The notes beneath the pieces are model-generated. The model saw only the letters and a list, made by a program, of their open reading frames with translations, was not told the origin of the DNA and did no database searches. DNA of 64,000 bases from Rufibacter psychrotolerans (GTDB lineage Bacteria > Bacteroidota > Bacteroidia > Cytophagales > Hymenobacteraceae): contig NZ_JAFFJV010000020.1 of the NCBI RefSeq assembly GCF_016924645.1, positions 62,001 to 126,000 on the forward strand, written 5' to 3'. A program made the position numbers and the translations under genes. This document shows, one piece after another, positions 1 to 12,151 of the stretch. Positions within the stretch are counted from its first letter, which is position 1; each line of letters starts with the position of its first letter.

Positions 1-3000
1 TGGAAAAAACCTGGAAGCCCGGTCAACTGAAACTGCAGCCCGAGGCGGTACTGGGCGTCTTCCCGCAGGCCGGCTCCTACCAGCTCACCGACTACGACGA
101 TCTGCTGGAGAACCCGCCCGCCGAGTCACTGGAAGAATTGCTCCTGCCACAAACCGAGGTGAACTCCACCCAAGCCCAACTGGAGCAGCAGCTGTTCACC
201 GCCTTTGACGCCGATTCCTCGCAGGAGGCGGCCCTGCGGCAGGTGAAGGCGGGCCAAAGCGTGGTGGTGCAGGGGCCGCCGGGCACCGGCAAATCGCAGC
301 TCATCTGCAACCTGGTGTCTGACTACCTGGCGCGGGGCAAGAGCGTGCTGGTGGTCTGCCAGAAGCGGGCCGCGCTGGACGTGGTGTACCAACGCCTTTC
401 CACCACCGGCCTGGACCAGTTCAGCGCCCTGGTGCACGACCTTAACCTGGACCGCCCCGCGGTGTTCAGCAAAATCAGGCAGCAGATTGAGCAGGTAGAG
501 GAGTACAAGCGGCAGAACGTGGCCCTGGGCAACATCCAGGCCGAGCGGCAGTTCCTGGAAACCAGCCGGCGCATCAACCAGATCTCGGAGCGGCTGAATG
601 GTCTGAAGGAGGCCCTGTTTGATGCTTCCCTTTGCGGCTGGTCGCCCAAGGAGCTGTATCTGCGCAGCAACCCGCGCGCGCCGCACCTGCCCGCCGAGGG
701 CATTTACCAGCAGTTCACCGCCCAGACCTGGCCCGAGTGGCGGCCGCGCCTGTTGCATTACCTGCAAGACGCGGGCCTGCTGCTGCACCCAGATTTCCCG
801 TGGAACGAGCGCCGCTCCTTCCATCTCCACACCTGGGCCGAGCGCCAGAAACTAGCCCAGCTGCTGGCCTTTGTTCCGGGCTCGGTGACCGCCATGGCCG
901 AACAGGTGAAGGAACTGATGCCCCCGCAGGCCGAGCCGTGGGATGCCCTGCAAGCCCTGCTGCAGGAGCTGCCCACTTTACAAGTAATCCAGACCACCTT
1001 GCAGGACAAGGCGGTTTCAAGGCTGTTTTTCGGGAATCTGGCCCAAAACAAAGACCAGCAGCCCCGCGAGGCCCTGCTCGCCCAACTGCAGGAAGAAACA
1101 GCGGCGGCGCCCATCAAACTCACGCCCGAGGAGGCAGCTGAGGTAACTCAGTTACTAGCGGCGCACGACCAGGCGCAAAGCGGCTTCTTCAGCAAGATAG
1201 GCTGGGGCTTTTCCTCGGCTAAAAAGCGGTTGTCGGCGTTCGCCCAGGGCAAGGGAATCGCCCAACCAGACGCGGCCGTGGAGCCTTTACGCGCGGCCCT
1301 GAAGCAGCTTGAGCCGCTGCAGGCCCAGTGGAAAAGCCTGCGCGAACTGGAGCCCACCCTGGAAATTCCGCACAACATTTTCAGCCAGGAGGCCGCGCGG
1401 GAGCTGGGCTACCTGCGGCAGGCCTGGGAGCTGCGCCAGACGGTGCAGAGGCTGCTGGCCTATGACGTGCTGCCCGATGGGCTGCTGCAGGTGGCCCCGG
1501 CGCGTTTCTCGGCTGTTTTCCAGGAAACGCTGCCAAAACTCCAGGCTCTGCAGGAGCAGCGGCAGGTTTGGCTCCAGTGGTTTACGCCTTCGCAGCTGGA
1601 AGCAATGATCACCAGCCCTGGGGCTGCCCAGCAAATGACCCAGAGCCTCCACGAGCACTTTGACCGCATGGTGGCCTTTGATGCGCTGGTGCAGACCTTG
1701 TCGCCGGAGTTGCGGGCCTGGCTGGAAGAGGTGCGCTTGGCGGTGCCCCAGAGCGTAGAGGCGCAGCTAGGGGCCATGGAGAACAGCGTTCTTTTAGCGT
1801 GGCTGCAACAGCTGGAAGGCCGAAGCCCCGTGCTCACCATCGTGAGTACCGGCGAACTGGAGCGCTTGGAGACCGAGCTGCAGGAAAAAATCAGGCAGAA
1901 AGCCGATTTGAGCCGCCAGATCATCCTGCTCAACCTGCGCGAGCAGACCTACCAGAACATGGAGTACAACCGGCTGGGCAACCCCGTCACGTACCGCCGC
2001 CTGCTCACGCAGGTGAGCAAAAAACGCATGCTGTATCCGCTGCGCAAACTCAACGCCGAGTTCGGCGACGAGATCCGGCAATTGTTGCCCTGCTGGCTGG
2101 CTTCGCCCGAGACCGTGTCGGCCTTGTTTCCGTTGGAGCGGATCTTTGATTTGGTCATCTTTGACGAGGCCTCGCAGTGCTTCGCCGAGGTGGGCGTGCC
2201 GGCCATGGTGCGCGCCAAGCAAGCCGTGATTGCCGGTGATGAGCAGCAGCTGGGCCCTTCAGACCTGTACCGCGTGCGGTTCGGGACGGACGAGGAGGAA
2301 ACCGAGGAACTGCTGGTGGAGTCTTTGCTGCAGCTGAGTGCGCTGCACCTGCCGCAGACCCTGCTCTCTGAGCATTACCGCAGCCAGTACCCCGAGCTGA
2401 TTCAGTTCTCCAACCAGAACTTCTACCGCGAGAAACTACAGCTCATTCCCCGGTTGGAGGCCATGAACGCGGCCGAACCGGCCCTGCAGTACCTCAAGGT
2501 AGACGGCGTGTGGGACAACCAGACCAACCGGGTAGAGGCCGAGCGCGTGCGCGACCTGGTGTTTGAGCTCCTGGGGCAGGGCCAGACCAACATTGGCGTG
2601 ATCACCTTCAACTTTCCGCAGCAGCAACTGGTGCAGGACCTGCTGGAAGAACAGGCCCAGGTGCAGAACGTGCCCCTGCCCCAGGAACTCATCGTGAAGA
2701 ACATTGAGAACATCCAGGGCGATGAGCGGCAGTACATCATCTTCTCCATCGGGTACGCGCCAGACGCCAGCGGCGTGGTGCGCGCCATGTTCGGCAGCCT
2801 GAACGCGGCCAAGGGCGAAAACCGCCTGAACGTGGCCATCACGCGGGCCATTAAGCGGGTGTACGTGGTCACCAGCCTGTGGCCCGAGCAGTTCCCCGTG
2901 GAGCAGGTGAAGCACCCCGGCCCCCGGCTGCTGCGCGACTACCTGGCGTTTGCGCGGGAAGTGAGCGAGCGCGGGTTCACGCCCAAGCCCCAGGCGCCCG

Positions 3001-3309: not shown

Positions 3310-4236
3310 ATGAAAAGCAAATTACTGGAGCTCTCCGTGGGCTTTTGCCTGCTGTTGGCGGTGGCCTGTGACACCGGCTCGGCCAAAGCCGAGGAGGGCA
3401 CCGCCGAAACCAAATCTGAGAAAGAGGGCAAGAAGAAGAAAGACAAGAACCCGGCCACCGAGGGCTTTACCGTGAACAACAACTATGACCTGCAGGAGGT
3501 GAGCAAAATGGGCAAGAAAACGGTGCCCGAGAGCTCGGGCCTGGAAACCTCCAGTGATGGTAACTTCTGGACCCACCCCGACGCGGGCAACGACGCGGTT
3601 TTGTACAAGATTAACCAGTCTGGCGAGCTGCTGGAAACCATGCAGGTGCAGGGCGCCAAAAACAACGACTGGGAAGATGTGGCCCGCGGCGAGGACGGCT
3701 TCCTCTACATTGGGGACATGGGCAACAACGAGAACACCCGCCAGGACCTGCAGATTCTGAAGGTAGACGAGAAAGCCAAAAAGGTGGTGGCCACCATTCC
3801 GTTCAAGTACGCAGACCAGACCCAGTTTCCGCCATCAAAGCAAGACCAAAACTATGACGTGGAAGGCTTCCTGATGCAGGGCAACAACTTTTACCTGTTC
3901 ACCAAGAACCGCGGCAAAGGCGATTGGGTAAAACTCTACAAGGTGGCCAACCAGCCGGGCCAGCCGCAAACCGTGCAGCCCCTGGACAGCGTGCAGATTT
4001 CCACCAAAATCACCGCCGCCGATATCTCGCCCAACGGCCGCCACATCGCCCTGTTGGGCGAAGGCTGGGTTTACCTGCTGGAAGCCGACAGCCCAGACGC
4101 GGCTTTCAAAGGCAAGAAAGAACAGATTCCGCTGGGCAAAGCCGGTCAGGCCGAAGGACTGGTCTTCGTGAACGACACCGACATGATGATCTCCAACGAG
4201 AAAGGCACCCTGTTCATGCTGAGCTTGAAGAAGTAA
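3310..4236 (+). CDS. Lipoprotein, probable beta-propeller-like
   Basis: 308 residues. The N-terminus is a lipoprotein signal peptide with lipobox LAVAC (Cys about residue 20), so the mature protein should be lipid-anchored. A Lys/Glu-rich linker (about residues 27-48) follows. The remainder contains short repeating blocks such as ESSGLETSSDGNFWTHPDAGN, DWEDVARGEDGFLYIGDMGNN and DVEGFLMQGNNFYLFTKN, the pattern of a blade-based propeller (SMP-30/YncE-like), which is a fold inference. The gene starts 4 nt after the helicase stop, so the two may be co-transcribed, although a functional link is not obvious. No catalytic motif was recognised and the function is unknown. Confidence 0.8.
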   Translation: MKSKLLELSVGFCLLLAVACDTGSAKAEEGTAETKSEKEGKKKKDKNPATEGFTVNNNYDLQEVSKMGKKTVPESSGLETSSDGNFWTHPDAGNDAVLYKINQSGELLETMQVQGAKNNDWEDVARGEDGFLYIGDMGNNENTRQDLQILKVDEKAKKVVATIPFKYADQTQFPPSKQDQNYDVEGFLMQGNNFYLFTKNRGKGDWVKLYKVANQPGQPQTVQPLDSVQISTKITAADISPNGRHIALLGEGWVYLLEADSPDAAFKGKKEQIPLGKAGQAEGLVFVNDTDMMISNEKGTLFMLSLKK

Positions 4237-4724: not shown

Positions 4725-5594
4725 ATGAGTGATACAATCTTAGTAACGGGCGCCACCGGCACGGTAGGTTCGGCCACGGTGAAAGCCCTGTCGGCGGTGG
4801 GGGCCAGGGTGAGGGCCGGAGTGCGGTCTACCATCAAAGGAGAAAACCTGAAACGCCTGCCCGGGGTAGAGGTGGTGGAGCTGGACTTTGCCCGCCCCGA
4901 AACCCTGGCCGTGGCGTTTACCGGGGTGAGCACCGCCCTGCTCATCACGCCGTTTGCCGCCGACCAGGTGGAAATGGCCCGGAAACTGGTAGATGCTGCC
5001 CAGGCGGCCGGTTTGCGCCACGTGGTGCGCCTGTCGGCGAGCGGGGCCGAGGTGGAGCCCGGCATCCAGCTGGGCCAATGGCACCGCATGGCCGAAGAGT
5101 ACCTGAAAGCCACCGAGCTCAACTACACCATTCTGCGGCCGGGTACTTTCATGCAGAACTTCGTGCACCAGCACGCCCCCAGCATTGTGCAGGAAAACAG
5201 CTTCTACCTGCCTATGGGCAACGGCCGCGTCGCCTACATTGACGTCCGCGACATTGGCGATGTGGCTGCCGAGATCCTGCAGCGCCCCGAGGGGCACGAC
5301 GCCAAAGCCTATACGCTCACCGGGCCGCAGGCGCTGTCGGGTTACGAGGTGGCGCAGGTGCTGTCTACTGCCACCGGCCGCACTATTTCCTACATTGACG
5401 TGCCTGAGGAAGCCGCCCGCGCCTCTATGCAGCAAGGCGGCCTGCCCGACTGGATGACCGAAAGCCTCCTGGAGCTCAACGCCATCTCGCGCACGGGCTA
5501 TGCCTCTGGGGTCACCAGTGACGTGCAGCAGATCATCGGGCGGGCGCCGTACTCGTTCCAGGATTTCGCGCTGGCCTACAAAGAGTGTTTCTGA
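4725..5594 (+). CDS. NmrA-family NAD(P)-binding oxidoreductase
   Basis: 289 residues. The N-terminus shows a Rossmann dinucleotide-binding motif, ILVTGATGTVGSATVKAL (GxxGxxG, residues 8-14). It is followed by the NmrA/QorB-like signature VELDFARPETLAVAFTGVSTALLITPF and the conserved ILRPGTFMQNF segment. Members of this atypical SDR group bind NAD(P)H and act either as quinone/NAD(P)H oxidoreductases or as redox sensors; which applies here cannot be told from sequence. The gene stands alone, with about 490 nt upstream and 360 nt downstream. The ATG start is followed directly by the hydrophobic first beta strand, so the start is convincing. Confidence 0.88.
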   Translation: MSDTILVTGATGTVGSATVKALSAVGARVRAGVRSTIKGENLKRLPGVEVVELDFARPETLAVAFTGVSTALLITPFAADQVEMARKLVDAAQAAGLRHVVRLSASGAEVEPGIQLGQWHRMAEEYLKATELNYTILRPGTFMQNFVHQHAPSIVQENSFYLPMGNGRVAYIDVRDIGDVAAEILQRPEGHDAKAYTLTGPQALSGYEVAQVLSTATGRTISYIDVPEEAARASMQQGGLPDWMTESLLELNAISRTGYASGVTSDVQQIIGRAPYSFQDFALAYKECF

Positions 5595-5957
5595 GTTAGA
5601 TTCCGGAAAAAAGCCCCTAAACAGAAGTTCCGTGGGCAGAATCCTTCAGGAATCCGTGCTGTTTTCCCAGAAAAAGGCCAAAACCGGCCCCCGCATTGGC
5701 AGAACTTTGGCGCAGGCGAAAGCAGTAGCGGGTTTGCCGTTCTATGGGTGTTTTAAGCCCGATTTCACGAAAGTAGCCCCAAAATAGCGGCATAAATCGG
5801 CCCTACGCTCACCATTTTGCACCGGGCACAGCTTCAAGCGTCGACCAAAGCGCCGGAGACCCGCAACTATTCTGTTCTTAATTGGCTTGTGGAGAAACAA
5901 AAAGCCCCGTTGGTTACAACGGGGCTTTTGCGTTAGAAAGGAAAGCTATCTGATGGG
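5595..5957. other. Intergenic region with three short palindrome copies
   Basis: 363 nt between convergent genes. Copies of the short palindrome family lie at 5599-5622 (immediately after the stop), 5661-5686 and 5749-5785. The last is long, with GTTTTAAGCC on the left and GTAGCCCCAAAATAG on the right. A bidirectional terminator closes the region at 5900-5929. Confidence 0.6.
5900..5929. terminator. Bidirectional intrinsic terminator
   Basis: A perfect 12-bp stem (AAAAGCCCCGTT / AACGGGGCTTTT) with loop GGTTAC. T-runs occur on both sides. It sits 29 nt beyond the stop of the minus-strand low-complexity gene and also faces the convergent oxidoreductase. Confidence 0.85.
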
Positions 5958-8228
5958 TTAGTCACGGTCATCTCTGGAAGAGGAACCGCCGCGCGATGAA
6001 CGCCCGCCCCGGTTGCTGCCGCCAGAGAAGTCATCTTCGCTGTAGTCGCCGGAGCGGCCATACTGCGAACGGTTCTCGTAGCCAGATCCGCCTCCGCCGT
6101 AGCTGGACTGTCCGCCCTGGCTGCCGTAGCCGCCGCGCGAGCCCATGTCGTTGGATGAGGAGCCATAGCCGCTGGAAGAACCGTGGCTGCTTCCGCCCTG
6201 ACCGTAGCCACCCATGCCGTAATCACGGCTCTGGTCGCCGTAGCCGCCGCCGGTAGAAGCGCCGCCTTGTCCGCGGTTACTGCCGCCAGTGCCGGAAGAC
6301 TGGTAGCCGCCACGGGAGCCCATGTCATTGCCCATGTTGCCGTAATTAGAGCCACCAAAGTTGCCTCCGCCGTAACCACCGTAGTTACCGCCCTGTGAGC
6401 CTGAGCCCGAGCCGTAGGAAGATCCGCCGTAGTTACCACCCTGCGAGCCTGAGCCGCCTTGCGAAGAGCGGGAGCCAAAGTCGCCGCCTTGGGCGTTGTG
6501 GGTGCTGTAGCCGCCGTGGCCACCGCCCGATTGTCTGCCACCACCGCTCATAGAGCCGTAGCCGCTGCTGTCACCGCCCTGGTACCCGCCGCGCGAGCTG
6601 CCTTGCCACTCCTGGTTGCCCCCTTGTGAGGAACCATAGCCGCCGCGGGAGCCCATGCCCGATGAACCCATGGAGCCGGAGCCTCCGCCGTATCCACCGC
6701 GGGAGCCCATGTCAGAGCCGTAGCCGCCACGGGAACCCATGTCATGGGAACCGTAGTTGCTGCCACCCCGGCCAGAGTCACTGCCATACGGACCGCTGTA
6801 GCTGTTTCCGCCCTGGCTGTAGCCGCCGTCAAAATCTGAGTTGCCGTCATAGCCACCCCGTGACCCGCCGCGTGAACCATATTCTTCGCCGTAAGAGCCG
6901 CCTCTGGAACCCATGGCGCCGTAAGAGCTGCTGTTTTGGTTGCTGTAACCCTGGCTGTACCCGCCGTGGCTGCGGCCGTGGTCATTGCCGTGCATGCCGT
7001 ACCCGCTCTCAGTGCCGTAGCCCATCTGGTTGCCGTAGTAGCCAGAGCCACCGTAGTTAGAGTAGCCGCCGCGGTCAGACTCTGAGCGGCTGGAGTTTCC
7101 GGCGTAACCCCCTTGGGAACTCATGCCGTACGGGTTGCTGCCCATAGAACCAGAGCCGTAGCCGCCGCGCGAGCCCATGTCACCGGAACCGCCGTAGCCG
7201 CCCTGCGAGCCGCTGCCCATTGAGCCGTAGCCACCCTGGCCATAGTTAGAACCGCCCTGGTTGCCCATTGAGCCGTATCCGCCTTGGCCGTAGCTGGAGC
7301 CTCCCTGGTTGCCCATAGAACCGGAACCGTAGCCGCCCTGTCCGTAGCCTGAGCCACCTTGTGAGCCGTAGCCGCCTCTGGAGCCCATGTCATTGGAGCT
7401 GCCGTACATGCCGCTGCCGCGGTTGCTTTGGTCATCCTGGTTGCTGTAGTTGCCGCCCCCAAAGCTGCCGCTGTTGCCCATAGAGCCGCCATAGCCGCCC
7501 TGCGAACCACCGTAGCCCCCTTGAGAGCCGCCGTAGCCACCCTGTGAGCCGCCATAGTTGCCGCCACCGCCACCGCCGTAGTTGCCTCCGCTGTAGCTTT
7601 CGCCATGCTGGGTGCCGTAGCCGCCGCGCTCGCCATTGAAGTTGCCGCCGCCGCTCACGCCGCTCATGGAAGAGCTGCTTTGGTTGCCGGCGTCGCCGCC
7701 CTGTGAGCCGCCGTAGCCCATGCCGCTGCCCACAGAGGCGGAAGAGCCAGCGGTCATGTTGTTATCTGAGTCAGACCCCGAAGAGCTGCCTGATTTGCCC
7801 GAGCCCGACTTGCCACTACTTGCTTTTGACGTGGTGGACGAGCCGGATTTAGAGCTGGCCTTAGGCGTGCTGGACGTTGTGGAGGCCGAGGTTTTGCTGC
7901 TGCCGTTCTTTTTATCAGAAGTAGAGGAGGAGCTTTTCTTAGAAGAAGTAGACCCGCCGGAGCTTGTGCCTGAACTGGCGCCCGAGCCGGTTAACCCAGA
8001 GATGCCGGTGCTGCCTACCCCTGAGCTAAGAACAGAACCAGAGCCGCCCGATCCACCGGAAGAGGAGCCGCTGCTGCCTTGTGCCCCGGTAGACCCGGTG
8101 GTTGACCCTCCGGTAGAGCTTTGGCCCATGTTGTCAGAGGAAGAGGAAGAAGCAGTTGCCCCTGTGCTGCCAGCACCAGTAGAGGAGCCTTGGTTTTTGT
8201 CTTGCTGCTCTTTTTGATTGTCTTTCAT
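5958..8228 (-). CDS. Gly/Ser/Tyr/Gln-rich low-complexity protein with RGG boxes
   Basis: 756 residues from the ATG at 8228, which has a strong Shine-Dalgarno AAAGGAG about 8 nt upstream; the frame is open for 32 more codons but without such a site. No signal peptide, membrane helix or cysteine was seen. Residues 1 to about 170 are Ser/Gly/Thr/Lys-rich. The rest is built of degenerate repeats such as GGYGSQGG, SYGQGGYGSMGNQGG and MGSRGGYGS, with many SRGGY (RGG-box) units. The end is acidic/basic (DYSEDDFSGG...SSRDDRD). The composition recalls eukaryotic FUS/hnRNP-type disordered regions, in which Tyr-Gly and Arg-Gly-Gly units drive RNA binding and condensation; that parallel is inference only. 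A leader hairpin precedes the gene and a terminator follows it. No family was recognised. Alternatives are a desiccation or stress protein or a surface/matrix protein. Confidence 0.75.
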   Translation of the reverse strand: MKDNQKEQQDKNQGSSTGAGSTGATASSSSSDNMGQSSTGGSTTGSTGAQGSSGSSSGGSGGSGSVLSSGVGSTGISGLTGSGASSGTSSGGSTSSKKSSSSTSDKKNGSSKTSASTTSSTPKASSKSGSSTTSKASSGKSGSGKSGSSSGSDSDNNMTAGSSASVGSGMGYGGSQGGDAGNQSSSSMSGVSGGGNFNGERGGYGTQHGESYSGGNYGGGGGGNYGGSQGGYGGSQGGYGGSQGGYGGSMGNSGSFGGGNYSNQDDQSNRGSGMYGSSNDMGSRGGYGSQGGSGYGQGGYGSGSMGNQGGSSYGQGGYGSMGNQGGSNYGQGGYGSMGSGSQGGYGGSGDMGSRGGYGSGSMGSNPYGMSSQGGYAGNSSRSESDRGGYSNYGGSGYYGNQMGYGTESGYGMHGNDHGRSHGGYSQGYSNQNSSSYGAMGSRGGSYGEEYGSRGGSRGGYDGNSDFDGGYSQGGNSYSGPYGSDSGRGGSNYGSHDMGSRGGYGSDMGSRGGYGGGSGSMGSSGMGSRGGYGSSQGGNQEWQGSSRGGYQGGDSSGYGSMSGGGRQSGGGHGGYSTHNAQGGDFGSRSSQGGSGSQGGNYGGSSYGSGSGSQGGNYGGYGGGNFGGSNYGNMGNDMGSRGGYQSSGTGGSNRGQGGASTGGGYGDQSRDYGMGGYGQGGSSHGSSSGYGSSSNDMGSRGGYGSQGGQSSYGGGGSGYENRSQYGRSGDYSEDDFSGGSNRGGRSSRGGSSSRDDRD

Positions 8229-8282
8229 GGTTAAATCTCCTTTGTTAATGGTTTTGGAATGGTTAGTTGGATACGCTGATGC

Positions 8283-8326
8283 ACTTGCCCGGAAGCCGGA
8301 ATTAGTTTTCCCGCTTCCGGGCAAGT
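8283..8326 (-). promoter_or_regulatory. Hairpin in the 5' leader of the low-complexity gene
   Basis: A perfect 14-bp stem: ACTTGCCCGGAAGC at 8283-8296 and GCTTCCGGGCAAGT at 8313-8326, with a 16-nt loop. It ends about 54 nt upstream of the start codon, and no T-run follows on the coding strand, so it is not an obvious terminator. It may stabilise or regulate the mRNA. Confidence 0.5.
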
Positions 8327-8569
8327 ATTAATACTATACGAACGGGTGTTCGCATGGTTAGCGCCTTCTATTACCATTTTGTAAATAATAGAAGATAAAC
8401 TTGGAGATTTGTTGAAAGAAGCCGGGCCTGAAGCCAAACCTTTTTGCCAAAATGATTTTTCAAGAATCTGGAGTGGGTGTACTCTCACCCAGGCCAGCAG
8501 CCAGCGGGAGGGCACCCAGACAATCCCAGACCCGTTGGGGTGCTTACGCCCGGTCAGCGGCTGGCATGG

Positions 8570-8673: not shown

Positions 8674-9783
8674 TTAGGAAAGTTTTTCTCCGTTGGTGGG
8701 TTGAGGAGTGCTGCCGGGGGAAGGAGAGGGGGTGGCGTCAACGTCCAGGTTGTTGATGAGTTCCTCGGCGTCTTCCTGCTCCTGTTCATCGGGTTCGGGC
8801 ACGTGGTGCTCATCGGCCTCCAGCGGTTCATAGTTGAGGCGCACAAAAATAGGGAAGTGGTCTGACCCAAAGAACGGCAACCGCCTGATCCTGATCAGCC
8901 GGAAGGCGGGGTCATAGAAGATATGGTCCAGGGAGTAGCGGAAGAACGGCACAAAGGCGTTGTAGGTATTGTAAAAGCCCCGCCCGATGCGCGGGTCCAG
9001 CAGGCCGCTGATTTTCCGGAACAGGTTGGTGGTGTACGACCAGGCCACATCGTTCAAATCGCCAATCACAATGCTGGCGTACGGTGAGTCTTTGGCCATT
9101 TTGGCCACCGTGAGCAATTCGGCCTCGCGGGTGTCAGTGTCCTTGTGCAGGTGAGGCGGTTGCGGGTGCACGGTAAACAGGTCAAACCGCTTGCCGGTGG
9201 GCAGTTCCACCACCATGTAAAAGGAAGGAATGCCCTCTTCTACCAGGTACCTTACCTCTGTGTGGGAAAGCTTGAACTTGCTGAAGAACATCATGCCGTA
9301 GGTGTTCTCCAGGGGCTCTTTAATGCAGTAGGGGTAGCGTTCATCCAGCTCAGAAAGGGCCTGGGCCCAGCGGTGGTTAGGTTCGTTGATGAGCAGCAGG
9401 TCGGGGTCATTTTCCCGCACTACCTTCAGGAACCGGTCATAGCGGGTGTTAGACATGCGCACGTTGGAGATCATGATCCCGAAGGAGTTCTTGGGGGCCT
9501 TTATTTTTGACCTGAGCGCCTGCGGCCGTACCAGGGGCGTGAACTTGTACACGTGCACCGCCTCGTTGAGGATGGCCAGCACCAACAACCCCGCAAAAAT
9601 CTTCTGCGTGAGCAGCTCAAAGCCAATGAACCAGCCATACAGCCCCAGCACCAGGAGCCCCAGCAGGGCTACCTGCACCCTGGGAAAATCAAGGACACGA
9701 ATCCACCAGTAAGTGCTCTTTACCAGGGTTAACAAAGAAGCTAATATGACAAAGCAGCCAAGTAGCTCAAGGGCGATTCTCAT
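8674..9783 (-). CDS. Membrane-anchored endonuclease/exonuclease/phosphatase-family protein
   Basis: 369 residues. The first ~85 residues form two or three hydrophobic helices, and the EEP domain (about 100-330) follows. Signature residues are visible: the Asn-Glu metal-ligand motif (LLINEPNHRW), the His motif FTVHPQPPH, IVIGDLNDVAWS (Asp and Asn) and the final GSDHFPIF (Asp-His). The fold hydrolyses phosphodiester bonds in nucleic acids, phospholipids or inositol phosphates; with the membrane anchor, a lipid or an extracytoplasmic nucleic-acid substrate is possible. The tail (about 330-369) is Glu/Asp-rich and disordered. The gene appears monocistronic, with a palindrome copy beyond its stop. 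Confidence 0.85.
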   Translation of the reverse strand: MRIALELLGCFVILASLLTLVKSTYWWIRVLDFPRVQVALLGLLVLGLYGWFIGFELLTQKIFAGLLVLAILNEAVHVYKFTPLVRPQALRSKIKAPKNSFGIMISNVRMSNTRYDRFLKVVRENDPDLLLINEPNHRWAQALSELDERYPYCIKEPLENTYGMMFFSKFKLSHTEVRYLVEEGIPSFYMVVELPTGKRFDLFTVHPQPPHLHKDTDTREAELLTVAKMAKDSPYASIVIGDLNDVAWSYTTNLFRKISGLLDPRIGRGFYNTYNAFVPFFRYSLDHIFYDPAFRLIRIRRLPFFGSDHFPIFVRLNYEPLEADEHHVPEPDEQEQEDAEELINNLDVDATPSPSPGSTPQPTNGEKLS

Positions 9784-9950: not shown

Positions 9951-10433
9951 TTACGGCGCCACCTTTTCTACGCGTACCCCCACGGCCATAATGCCGGGCA
10001 GGGGGTCTTGGCGCATGTACTGGTTAAGCTTGAGGGTGTACTTGCCGGGTTGCCCAAACCGCACGTTTTTCAACGCCCTGAACTGGTGGTCAAAGATGTC
10101 GCCGGCGCCGTTGCCCTTGGGCTCGCCGGTCTTGGGGTCCATGAGGAACATCTCGTGCAGCATGGAGTTGATCTGCCTGCCGTCTGGGCCCACCAGGTAG
10201 TGCCGCAGATACAGGTTGTAGAACGGGTAGTGCAGCGCGTTGCGCACGTTGAAGAACACGTTGTACTGCTGCGTGGTATCTGTCACCTCAAACGTAAAAA
10301 CGGGGGCCAGCTTTACCGGCCACTCGTTGTTGGGAATATCCTGGTTTTCCTCAAAGACGCGGTTGGCATCACAGCTGCCCAGCAAGAAACCCAGGCACAG
10401 CAAAGCCATAAAAAAAGACAGGTGCTTACTCAT
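9951..10433 (-). CDS. gldH: Gliding motility lipoprotein GldH
   Basis: 160 residues with lipoprotein signal MSKHLSFFMALLCLGFLLGSC (lipobox Cys at 21). The sequence is typical of GldH: VFTFEVTDTTQQYNVFFNVRN and NLYLRHYLVGPDGR, with HQFRALKNVRFGQPGKYTLKLNQYMR near the end. GldH is a cell-envelope lipoprotein needed for gliding motility in Bacteroidota, where the Gld proteins overlap with the type IX secretion machinery. The start codon overlaps the ricT stop by one base (TAATG), so the two are translationally coupled. The ricT-gldH order is common in this phylum. Confidence 0.93.
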   Translation of the reverse strand: MSKHLSFFMALLCLGFLLGSCDANRVFEENQDIPNNEWPVKLAPVFTFEVTDTTQQYNVFFNVRNALHYPFYNLYLRHYLVGPDGRQINSMLHEMFLMDPKTGEPKGNGAGDIFDHQFRALKNVRFGQPGKYTLKLNQYMRQDPLPGIMAVGVRVEKVAP

Positions 10434-12151
10434 TAACCTTCTGGGTTAGGCGTGGGGGTTGCGTTTTCTGGGGCACCCGGCCGGCGGTTGCGGTGGTTGC
10501 GGTTGCGGCTCCTTCTGGACCGCTGCTCCCCTTCGGCGCGGGGTGGCCGGTCGGCGGTAACGGCTCCTTCAGTAGGGACCATCTCCACAGCGGGTTGCGG
10601 CCGGTTCTGCTGCGGCTGTCTAGGGCCCTGGGGCCGTTCTGCCCGGGGCGGGCGGTTTTCCTTGGGGGCCCGGTTAGGGTCGCGTTCGGGCTTTGGTTTG
10701 CCCTGGCCCTGTTGCTGCGGCTGTCCTTTGCCCTGCGGGCGCTCTGGCCGGGGCCTGGGCTCACCGCCCTGGTTCTGCCGCTGGCTGCCACGCTCCTGCT
10801 GGTTTCTGGCTTCGCCGTTTTCTGCCCTGGGCGCGCGTTCTGGCCTTGGGGCCCCGTTCTCTTCTGCCTCGGCTTTTCTGCCATTGCGCTCTGACCGGCC
10901 TTTGGGCGAGTCAGAAGACTTGGCGATGCCATCGGGGCGGTCTCTCCGGACCTCCGGGGTAGGCGTGGACTGGGCCAGTTTCTCGGCCGCGTTGCCGCCG
11001 CTTTTCTTTTTCTTGCGCTTTTTCTTGCCCTTGCTGAACTGCTCGTCCAGGCGGTCCAGGTTGCCTTCCAGCGACTCCACAAAGTCCACTACCTCGGCCT
11101 GCTGCTGCTTTTTCACCTCTTCGGCCAGGTTCTCGGGCATCTCGCCGGCGGCGTTCATCTTGAGCACCTCCTGCACGCGCTCCACGGGTACCGGAAACCA
11201 GTTGCTGTCGCCGCGGTAACCGAACCACATGATGCGCCGGAAAATATCGGTCTTCTGCAGGAAAGCCTCGCCGGCCTTGGTCTGCAGCGGACGGTTCACG
11301 TTGGGGATGTCCTTGAGGGCATCCATGTAGGTTTCCAGCTCATAGTTGAGGCAGCACTTCAAACGCCCGCACTGGCCCGAGAGCTTGCTGGGGTTGAGCG
11401 ACAGGTTCTGGTACCGCGCCGCAGTGGTAGACACGCTTTTAAAGTCGGTAAGCCAGGTAGAGCAGCACAGTTCGCGGCCGCAGGAGCCAATGCCGCCCAA
11501 ACGGCCGGCCTCGTGCCGAAGGCTGATCTGGCGCATCTCAATGCGTACCTTGAACTCCTCGGCCAGTTTCTTGATCAGTTCCCTGAAATCCACGCGGTCA
11601 TCGGCGGAGTAGAAGAAGGTGGCCTTGGTTCTGTCGGCCTGGTACTCCACGTCTGAGAGCTTCATCTTGAGCTTGAGGTCCTGCACAATGGCGCGGGCGC
11701 GGTACATGGTGGTAGACTCCTGCTCGCGCGCGGCGTTGAACTTCTCCATGTCCTTCTCCGTGGCGATGCGGTAGATGCTCCGGATCTCGTCATTGTTCTG
11801 AACTTTCTTCTTGTTCATCTGCAGACGCACCAGTTCGCCTTTGAGAGACACGTGGCCAATGTGGTGCCCGTTGGGCACGTCCACCACCACGGCGTCGCCG
11901 GTGGTGAGCTGAAGCCGGTTTACGTTCCGGAAAAATTCTTTGCGGCCGCCCTTAAAGCGGATCTCCACTATATCAAACTCCTTAAAAGACACGGGTATCT
12001 CCATGTCTGAGAGCCAATCAAACACATTTAAACGGTTACAGCCTCCCGTGCTGCAACCGCCGTTGCTTTTGCAGCCAGCCACTGCCACCTCGCCATCGAC
12101 CGAGATAGCCTTGGAGCCGCAGCCGCCACTAGAACATGAACTACATCCCAC
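10433..12151 (-). CDS. ricT: PSP1/RicT-type iron-sulfur regulatory protein
   Basis: 572 residues. The N-terminus carries six cysteines (positions 3, 6, 11, 27, 33, 38). The PSP1 core spans about 90-275, with diagnostic Cys clusters CGRELCC (224-230) and CGRLKCC (261-267). RicT (YaaT) is part of the Ric complex that promotes RNase-dependent RNA processing in Bacillus; in Bacteroidota its role is less clear. From about residue 370 onward the protein is a low-complexity Arg/Pro/Gly/Gln-rich tail with poly-Lys (KKRKKKKSGG), likely disordered and possibly RNA-binding. This tail is unusually long, because the Bacillus protein ends soon after the core. It is coupled to gldH. Confidence 0.9.
   Translation of the reverse strand: MGCSSCSSGGCGSKAISVDGEVAVAGCKSNGGCSTGGCNRLNVFDWLSDMEIPVSFKEFDIVEIRFKGGRKEFFRNVNRLQLTTGDAVVVDVPNGHHIGHVSLKGELVRLQMNKKKVQNNDEIRSIYRIATEKDMEKFNAAREQESTTMYRARAIVQDLKLKMKLSDVEYQADRTKATFFYSADDRVDFRELIKKLAEEFKVRIEMRQISLRHEAGRLGGIGSCGRELCCSTWLTDFKSVSTTAARYQNLSLNPSKLSGQCGRLKCCLNYELETYMDALKDIPNVNRPLQTKAGEAFLQKTDIFRRIMWFGYRGDSNWFPVPVERVQEVLKMNAAGEMPENLAEEVKKQQQAEVVDFVESLEGNLDRLDEQFSKGKKKRKKKKSGGNAAEKLAQSTPTPEVRRDRPDGIAKSSDSPKGRSERNGRKAEAEENGAPRPERAPRAENGEARNQQERGSQRQNQGGEPRPRPERPQGKGQPQQQGQGKPKPERDPNRAPKENRPPRAERPQGPRQPQQNRPQPAVEMVPTEGAVTADRPPRAEGEQRSRRSRNRNHRNRRPGAPENATPTPNPEG

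Follow-up and report, generated by a model that had tools for sequence, protein, structure and literature searches.

The window analysed here, a stretch of 64,000 nucleotides from Rufibacter psychrotolerans, carries on its minus strand, at 5958..8228, an open reading frame with an ATG at 8228 and a stop codon at 5958–5960, which encodes a low-complexity (LC) protein of 756 aa. According to NCBI, Rufibacter belongs to the family Hymenobacteraceae; in the following, g1 denotes the genus holding Rufibacter, and g2 to g6 denote five other genera of this family. A preliminary description had treated the frame as a gene for a protein of 756 residues, and it indeed proved to be a real gene, on the minus strand. 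An upstream TTG start, which would give an ORF of 788 aa, was rejected, because it lies 10 nt past the -10 box of the promoter described below and before the ribosome binding site, and because the conserved alignment begins at the ATG at 8228.

The LC protein consists of 34% glycine and 24% serine and contains 58 Tyr, 28 Arg, 13 Lys and 41 Asp plus Glu residues, at a net charge of 0. Residues 1–170 (7719..8228, minus strand) start with a conserved MKDNQKEQQ and continue as a Ser/Gly/Thr/Lys-rich part almost devoid of Tyr. Residues 171–756 (5961..7718, minus strand) are built from Tyr-Gly-Ser-Gln repeats with SRGGY units, and their Tyr residues are evenly spaced. This part includes a near-invariant genus core (aa 365–411; 6996..7136, minus strand), whose invariant alignment columns read NPYGMSSQGGY...YGNQMGYG.ESGYG, and a single-copy family signature (aa 440–452, GSRGGSYGEEYGS; 6873..6911, minus strand). 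The YG/RGG grammar ascribed to the protein in the preliminary description is well borne out, since all motif counts exceed those in 1000 shuffles of the same protein: 16 RGG (shuffle mean 3.25), 9 SRGGY (0.06), 35 [GS]Y[GS] (19.9) and 43 YG (19.9), with none of the shuffles reaching the respective count. DNA tandem-repeat expansion as the origin was dismissed, as TRF gave short local repeats only.

Upstream of the LC gene, and likewise on the minus strand, are a gene of the Exo_endo_phos family (8674..9783; PF03372), a GldH lipoprotein gene (9951..10433; PF14109) and a PSP1/RicT-family gene coding for a protein with a long basic tail (10433..12151; PF04468, NF041131). Downstream, an NmrA-like gene (4725..5594, plus strand; PF05368) is convergent with the LC gene. 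The order of the locus is PSP1/RicT, GldH, exo-endo-phosphatase, LC and NmrA, of which the exo-endo-phosphatase and NmrA genes are not constant members.

A ribosome site and a terminator, both of which had been put forward in support of expression, are present. The former, AAAGGAG at 8237..8243 (minus strand), emerges from sequence reading and from the alignment of the g1 upstream regions; the latter is a predicted intrinsic terminator with a 13-pair stem at 5900..5929 (minus strand), and a hairpin with a T-rich tail was recognized by eye in all 16 aligned g1 loci. The same g1 upstream alignment contains a conserved block, AACCATGC-N10-TCGTATAG. In the window, the motif AAC-N16-CGTATAG occupies 8334..8359 (minus strand), and its generalized form AAC-N16/17-CGTAT occurs within 400 nt upstream of the LC gene at 38 of 38 loci from six genera (16 from g1, 16 from g2–g4 and six from g5/g6), the spacer being 16 nt in 31 loci and 17 nt in seven. 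Of 168 control genes taken from these loci (scored upstream of the first ATG of each ORF, genes too near the locus end being left out), only two were preceded by the motif, and it was found in 181 of 7600 shuffles. Judged by its sequence, the arrangement is that of an ECF sigma promoter; no sigma-70-type promoter was found for the LC gene. A hairpin predicted for the 5' end of the transcript (8284..8325, minus strand) has weak covariation support. As a regulatory RNA it was discarded, because it is uneven across the 16 g1 loci, with z-scores from -6.8 (the value in the window) to -0.5 and one locus lacking the hairpin (L033), and because it shows little covariation, only one of the six consensus pairs being changed on both sides. 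A search of the window against Rfam at gathering scores did not yield any match.

Profile searches detected the LC protein in 16 of 150 genomes of the family, all belonging to g1 and all with an open frame without internal stops; the gene is thus present and intact in each of the 16 same-genus genomes drawn. The preliminary description had held that absence of the protein together with a frame disrupted in close relatives would speak against its reading; no such disruption was seen in these 16 genomes. The g1 orthologues are 70–83% identical to the window protein, and dN/dS values relative to the window copy average 0.20, with 0.28 for the N-terminal Ser/Thr/Lys part (aa 1–170), the least conserved segment, and 0.09 for aa 365–440; for the latter region, comparison with the two closest copies gave 0.02–0.03 (range 0.02–0.09 overall). 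Of the residue types with at least ten copies, Tyr has the highest share of invariant positions (24 of 58), while Thr (one of 24) and Lys (one of 13) have the lowest. The intact frames, the level of identity and a dN/dS of about 0.2 argue against a chance ORF, and these alignments demonstrate a conserved gene, evidently under purifying selection.

Since the profile searches matched g1 only (16 of 150 genomes of the family; four of 241 genomes of the order), the LC protein had the appearance of a genus-restricted orphan, a notion refuted by reading the syntenic loci. The Exo_endo_phos gene, which adjoins the LC gene in 14 of the 14 same-genus genomes in which both were seen, was located in 59 of 60 genomes of the family (E ≤ 1e-20), g5 and g6 possessing only paralogues of about 40% identity. 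Twenty Exo_endo_phos loci were fetched and read for an LC protein. Each of the 16 loci from g2, g3 and g4 encodes a disordered protein (533–689 aa) downstream of the Exo_endo_phos gene and on the same strand, at a distance of about 0.6 to 2.5 kb, compared to 0.45 kb in the window. The NmrA gene comes next, in convergent orientation, at 11 of these 16 loci, and either NmrA or the equivalent of the window gene 3310–4236 at 12; within the fetched stretches of the remaining four, neither was present. The other loci (L103–L106, from g5/g6) harbor the paralogues of about 40% identity; they do not represent the syntenic place and stand outside the synteny count. In g5 and g6, GldH and PSP1 genes occur at seven of seven fetched loci, and six of the seven stretches encode a signature-bearing disordered protein beside them. 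In the seventh (L120, genome G044), which showed a weak profile match, no signature-bearing ORF was detected in the fetched stretch, and it is not part of the 38 loci.

A C-terminal profile built from the six g5/g6 proteins (profile A5) matched 79 of 150 family genomes from four of the six genera, but not one of the 16 genomes of g1 and none of g2. Across the phylum it matched three of 395 genomes, all three being Hymenobacteraceae, and the profile searches of order and phylum did not find any LC family member outside this family. The homologues in Hymenobacteraceae for which the preliminary description had recommended a search thus exist, in g1 by profile and in six genera by synteny. As profile A5 did not match g1, the g5/g6 proteins are tied to Rufibacter by locus, signature and promoter together with weak profile matches, rather than by high homology scores. 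Taken together, the sequence comparisons place a disordered LC protein at a common locus in six Hymenobacteraceae genera, and the family is spread over, and, at the sensitivity of these profiles, confined to the Hymenobacteraceae. The case illustrates how such proteins pass as orphans: by profile, the LC protein is a genus-only protein, and by synteny, it is family-wide.

The pattern [RQ]GGSYx[DE]E[YM], which was chosen after inspection of the same 32 g1–g4 sequences, occurs exactly once in each of these 32 proteins and in one of 9600 shuffles. The six g5/g6 proteins are not counted as tests of the signature, because they were picked for carrying it. A profile of the signature region matched 15 of 291 genomes of the order, all of them Hymenobacteraceae, with weak matches in g5 and g6 (E 1e-5 to 1e-2); it is not a sensitive probe, since it missed two of four g1 genomes. 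What the LC proteins have in common across genera is a short single-copy signature, GGSYxDEY, and the locus. The low complexity of the region and the many shadow ORFs on both strands could suggest that the repeats drift neutrally, or that a GC-rich repeat gives rise to a spurious ORF. We consider this reading already refuted by the dN/dS of 0.2, the frame intact in 16 of 16 genomes, the promoter at 38 of 38 loci and the signature in 32 of 32 proteins, and attach a negligible probability to it.

AlphaFold2, run with 16 orthologues, returned a mean pLDDT of 38 for the window protein and values below 50 for 745 of its 756 residues, in line with the almost complete disorder attributed to it beforehand. 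A folded core was likewise rejected, as no confident structure was obtained for either the 756-aa form or a 303-aa form. The window protein did not match any family of Pfam or NCBIfam at E ≤ 1, or any PDB sequence at E ≤ 0.01, and a Pfam domain was found neither in this protein nor in six relatives. Secretion was checked by the Kyte-Doolittle hydropathy of the first 55 residues of 38 family members, all of which lack a signal-peptide-like hydrophobic stretch (highest value of a 15-aa window ≤0.49), which supports the cytoplasmic character suggested by the preliminary description. On these predictions, the LC protein is disordered, very hydrophilic and glycine-rich, without a secretion signal and probably cytosolic. 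Gly/Tyr-rich repeats resemble those of adhesive and structural proteins, and a GldH lipoprotein gene is located nearby, so that the protein might be envisaged to reach the cell surface or biofilm matrix through some unusual export pathway. This is, however, very improbable in view of the hydropathy results for 38 of 38 members, the charged and conserved N-terminus, and the lack of Pfam domains in the window protein and six relatives.

The YG/RGG grammar is variable across the family. In all 34 long forms, Tyr residues over the final three quarters of the sequence are more evenly spaced than in all of 500 shuffles (for the window protein, none of 500 was as even). The long forms keep 6.4–10.1% Tyr, and their spacers shift from G/S in g1 to N/Q/D/R in g4. 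Four of the six g5/g6 proteins comprise only 297–303 aa, are acidic, with net charges between -18 and -25, and contain hardly any YG or RGG; these short g6 forms contain 10–12 Tyr, and 15, 17, 194 and 29 of 500 shuffles, respectively, were as even. RGG counts range from 2 to 8 in the g2–g5 proteins examined and from 0 to 2 in the four short g6 forms, which does not support RGG boxes as a family-wide hallmark. The short g6 forms are Tyr-poor and acidic and have at most two RGG, which means that not every member can work by sticker-driven condensation. Duplication of YG units could also produce an even spacing of Tyr.

The RGG and YGG motifs raise the question of an RNP scaffold or RNA chaperone, which would bind RNA and organise RNA decay or translation in connection with the RicT-family neighbour. 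The 16 RGG of the window protein, a count reached by none of 1000 shuffles, and the presence of a PSP1 protein at the seven fetched g5/g6 loci are compatible with such a role, and a Tyr/Gly-rich disordered motif of hnRNPA2 interacts with RNA (PMC9067507). Nevertheless, we regard it as unlikely, given the few RGG in other genera (2–8, and 0–2 in the short g6 forms) and the lack of domain matches in the window protein and six relatives; proximity to RicT may reflect mere chromosomal linkage.

In the genome of R. psychrotolerans, the pattern AACC-N14-16-CGTATA occurs at 14 sites, as compared to 11 for a reversed control pattern. This number is not above the control; the genome-wide count was therefore discarded as evidence for a regulon, and the case rests on the position of the sites and the identity of the genes. 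Twelve of the 14 motif sites, but only two of the 11 reversed ones, lie outside ORFs of at least 120 aa, and an ORF of at least 60 aa starts 29–106 nt downstream of eight of the 14, as against two of the 11 (62 and 66 aa). Among the genes behind the motif sites are those for DUF892, CsbD, DUF4142 and GAF proteins. Upstream regions were tested for 30 of the 39 DUF892 and 30 of the 43 CsbD matches listed, namely those with loci. For DUF892 (YciE/YciF), 25 of the 30 genes, from 21 genomes, have the motif 72–112 nt before the domain start, compared with none of 30 on the reverse strand and 44 of 3000 shuffles. By genus, it precedes 25 of 26 DUF892 genes in g1–g4 and none of four in g5/g6. In the case of csbD, the motif was found for six of 30 genes (four of five in g1, two of six in g6 and none of 19 elsewhere), the other 24 lacking it.

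Since the DUF892 genes of g5/g6 are without the motif, a promoter common to the LC gene and DUF892 is established for g1–g4 only; in these four genera, the sequences show the LC gene sharing an apparent alternative-sigma-type promoter with this stress gene family. We take the LC gene to belong, quite probably, to a stress regulon, and consider AAC-N16/17-CGTAT a candidate general-stress promoter for Hymenobacteraceae. The general-stress promoter of alphaproteobacteria, GGAAC-N16-CGTT, has csbD among its targets (PMC7083833). The LC promoter resembles this EcfG-type regulon in the -35 AAC, the 16-nt spacer and the CGT of the -10 box, but differs in that its -10 is CGTATA(G), its -35 lacks a fixed GG, and the phylum is Bacteroidota; the canonical consensus is not present at the 38 loci, all of which have CGTAT and variable bases before AAC.

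All 38 LC proteins contain more than 8% Gly and have GRAVY values below -1, the short Tyr-poor members included. The usual cut-offs for hydrophilins are 8% glycine and a hydrophilicity index above 1. By composition alone, which is what defines the class, the LC protein is a hydrophilin, with GRAVY used in place of a hydrophilicity index. PMC4190154 describes hydrophilins by their glycine content and hydrophilicity, with the glycine limit lowered to 6%, and as proteins of yeast and E. coli whose expression tracks osmotic stress. It is conceivable, if rather doubtful, that the LC protein acts simply as a soluble hydrophilin, a hydrated, flexible shield for enzymes and membranes during water loss that functions without condensates and in which the Tyr-Gly repeats are incidental. 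The uniform composition, short forms included, and the promoter type common to LC and DUF892 genes in g1–g4 are consistent with this. Such a shield would, however, leave unexplained the Tyr fraction and even Tyr spacing of the 34 long forms as well as the RGG enrichment and the near-invariant core of the window protein.

We lean, by a narrow measure, towards a stress-regulon, cytosolic, disordered protein of the hydrophilin class which is protective via Tyr/Arg-driven condensation or gelation. On drying, osmotic stress or entry into stationary phase, an alternative sigma factor would turn on the LC gene; Tyr, together with Arg, would provide stickers and the G/S/N/Q linkers would serve as spacers, and the protein would condense or gel reversibly and in this way shield nucleic acids and proteins. 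A conserved partner might dock onto the GGSYxDEY signature and the genus core. A protein that works by condensing or gelling would be expected to retain Tyr while its spacers vary, as seen here. Accumulation under stress and Tyr/Arg-driven condensation, to the protection of the cell contents, is considered the likeliest mechanism; a condensate or gel as such carries, in our estimation, roughly an even chance.

More tentatively, and on balance with some doubt, the LC protein may be a domain-free, stress-sigma-controlled condensate scaffold, with a sticker-and-spacer grammar at which the Hymenobacteraceae arrived independently of the stress-granule proteins of eukaryotes, an ancestral short disordered stress protein having grown longer. 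Acidic forms of about 300 aa, as found in one genus, would then have given rise to a Tyr/Arg scaffold of 500–760 aa, which on drying would turn the cytosol into a gel; to take the short form as the ancestral state is a guess. If this scaffold reading is true, the short-to-long series at one locus constitutes a natural experiment on the evolution of the grammar. Proteins at this locus range in size from 297 aa, with 12 Tyr, up to 756 aa, with 58 Tyr, so that natural variants are available for testing how sticker content relates to condensation and to survival of stress. The host bacteria are often associated with radiation and drying, and the promoter of the LC gene is readable and in four genera sets the gene beside known stress genes.

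Among the matches listed from the open-access literature, neither the LC protein nor its promoter is mentioned in titles or the beginnings of abstracts. Known hydrophilins, such as DtpA/DtpB of Acinetobacter and Hsp12/STF2p of yeast, resemble the LC protein in their high glycine content, strong hydrophilicity and disorder. The Tyr/RGG repeat grammar and the conserved signature, in contrast, set the LC protein apart, the sequences having been compared via family and PDB searches. The LC protein is also far longer than Hsp12-type hydrophilins. DtpA and DtpB support desiccation tolerance (PMC13232832). A precedent for a disordered region in a Bacteroidota protein is Rho of Bacteroides thetaiotaomicron, in whose IDR short sequences control starvation-linked condensation (PMC13269538). 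Rho, however, acts in termination, and it is a KE-rich subdomain, together with RNA, that drives its IDR, whereas the LC protein is Tyr/Gly-based and lacks a folded domain. The FUS-like character proposed in the preliminary description holds for the grammar: FUS/FET and hnRNP low-complexity proteins, like the LC protein, combine even Tyr in a G/S/Q-rich sequence with RGG units. It does not extend to architecture or descent, since FUS/FET proteins have a folded RNA-binding domain (RRM, zinc finger), whereas for the window protein searches of Pfam, NCBIfam and PDB revealed neither an RRM, a zinc finger or another domain nor any homology, and its RGG units are not kept family-wide. The LC protein presents a bacterial case of the grammar of eukaryotic condensate proteins that makes up a whole protein rather than the tail of an enzyme.

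A strong hairpin is predicted at window positions 8284–8325 on the minus strand, starting about 8 nt past the -10 box, and the transcript of the low-complexity gene thus probably begins with a stem-loop. Counterparts were predicted in the majority, but not all, of the 16 loci of g1, the genus holding Rufibacter; covariation is weak. Four long ORFs overlap the low-complexity gene, three in other frames of the minus strand (5933–6544, 6548–7051 and 7121–7636) and one on the opposite, plus strand (7720–8217); judging by their appearance, the GC-rich repeats give rise to them as shadow frames. The translation of the neighbouring RicT/PSP1-family gene (10433–12151, minus strand) has a long basic tail, rich in Arg, Pro and Gln, which looks disordered.

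Candidate members of the same regulon in the Rufibacter genome (loci L142–L154) encode DUF892, CsbD, DUF4142 and GAF proteins as well as three small proteins, for which no family scored above its cut-off. Four intergenic promoter-motif sites in this genome are followed by no ATG-initiated ORF of at least 60 aa within 260 nt downstream. The genome also codes for a second S/G/Y-rich low-complexity protein of 508 aa (C-terminus GFFERIGHGIRDAWNSIAGDDD; positions 1462–2985, plus strand, of locus L166 on contig C33), which matched nothing in Pfam or NCBIfam. Its gene lies 62 nt downstream of an AAC-N16-CGTATAA site that was picked up with 3 mismatches allowed.

The length of the low-complexity protein varies widely inside the single genus g6, where acidic forms of 297–303 aa (L117, L118, L119 and L122) occur besides a Tyr-rich form of 535 aa (L123). 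The AAC-N-CGTAT motif precedes 25 of the 26 DUF892 genes tested in genera g1–g4, and is absent from all four tested in g5 and g6 (L179, L182, L185 and L187). The low-complexity gene of g5 and g6 nevertheless retains the motif: the regulon may have been rewired.
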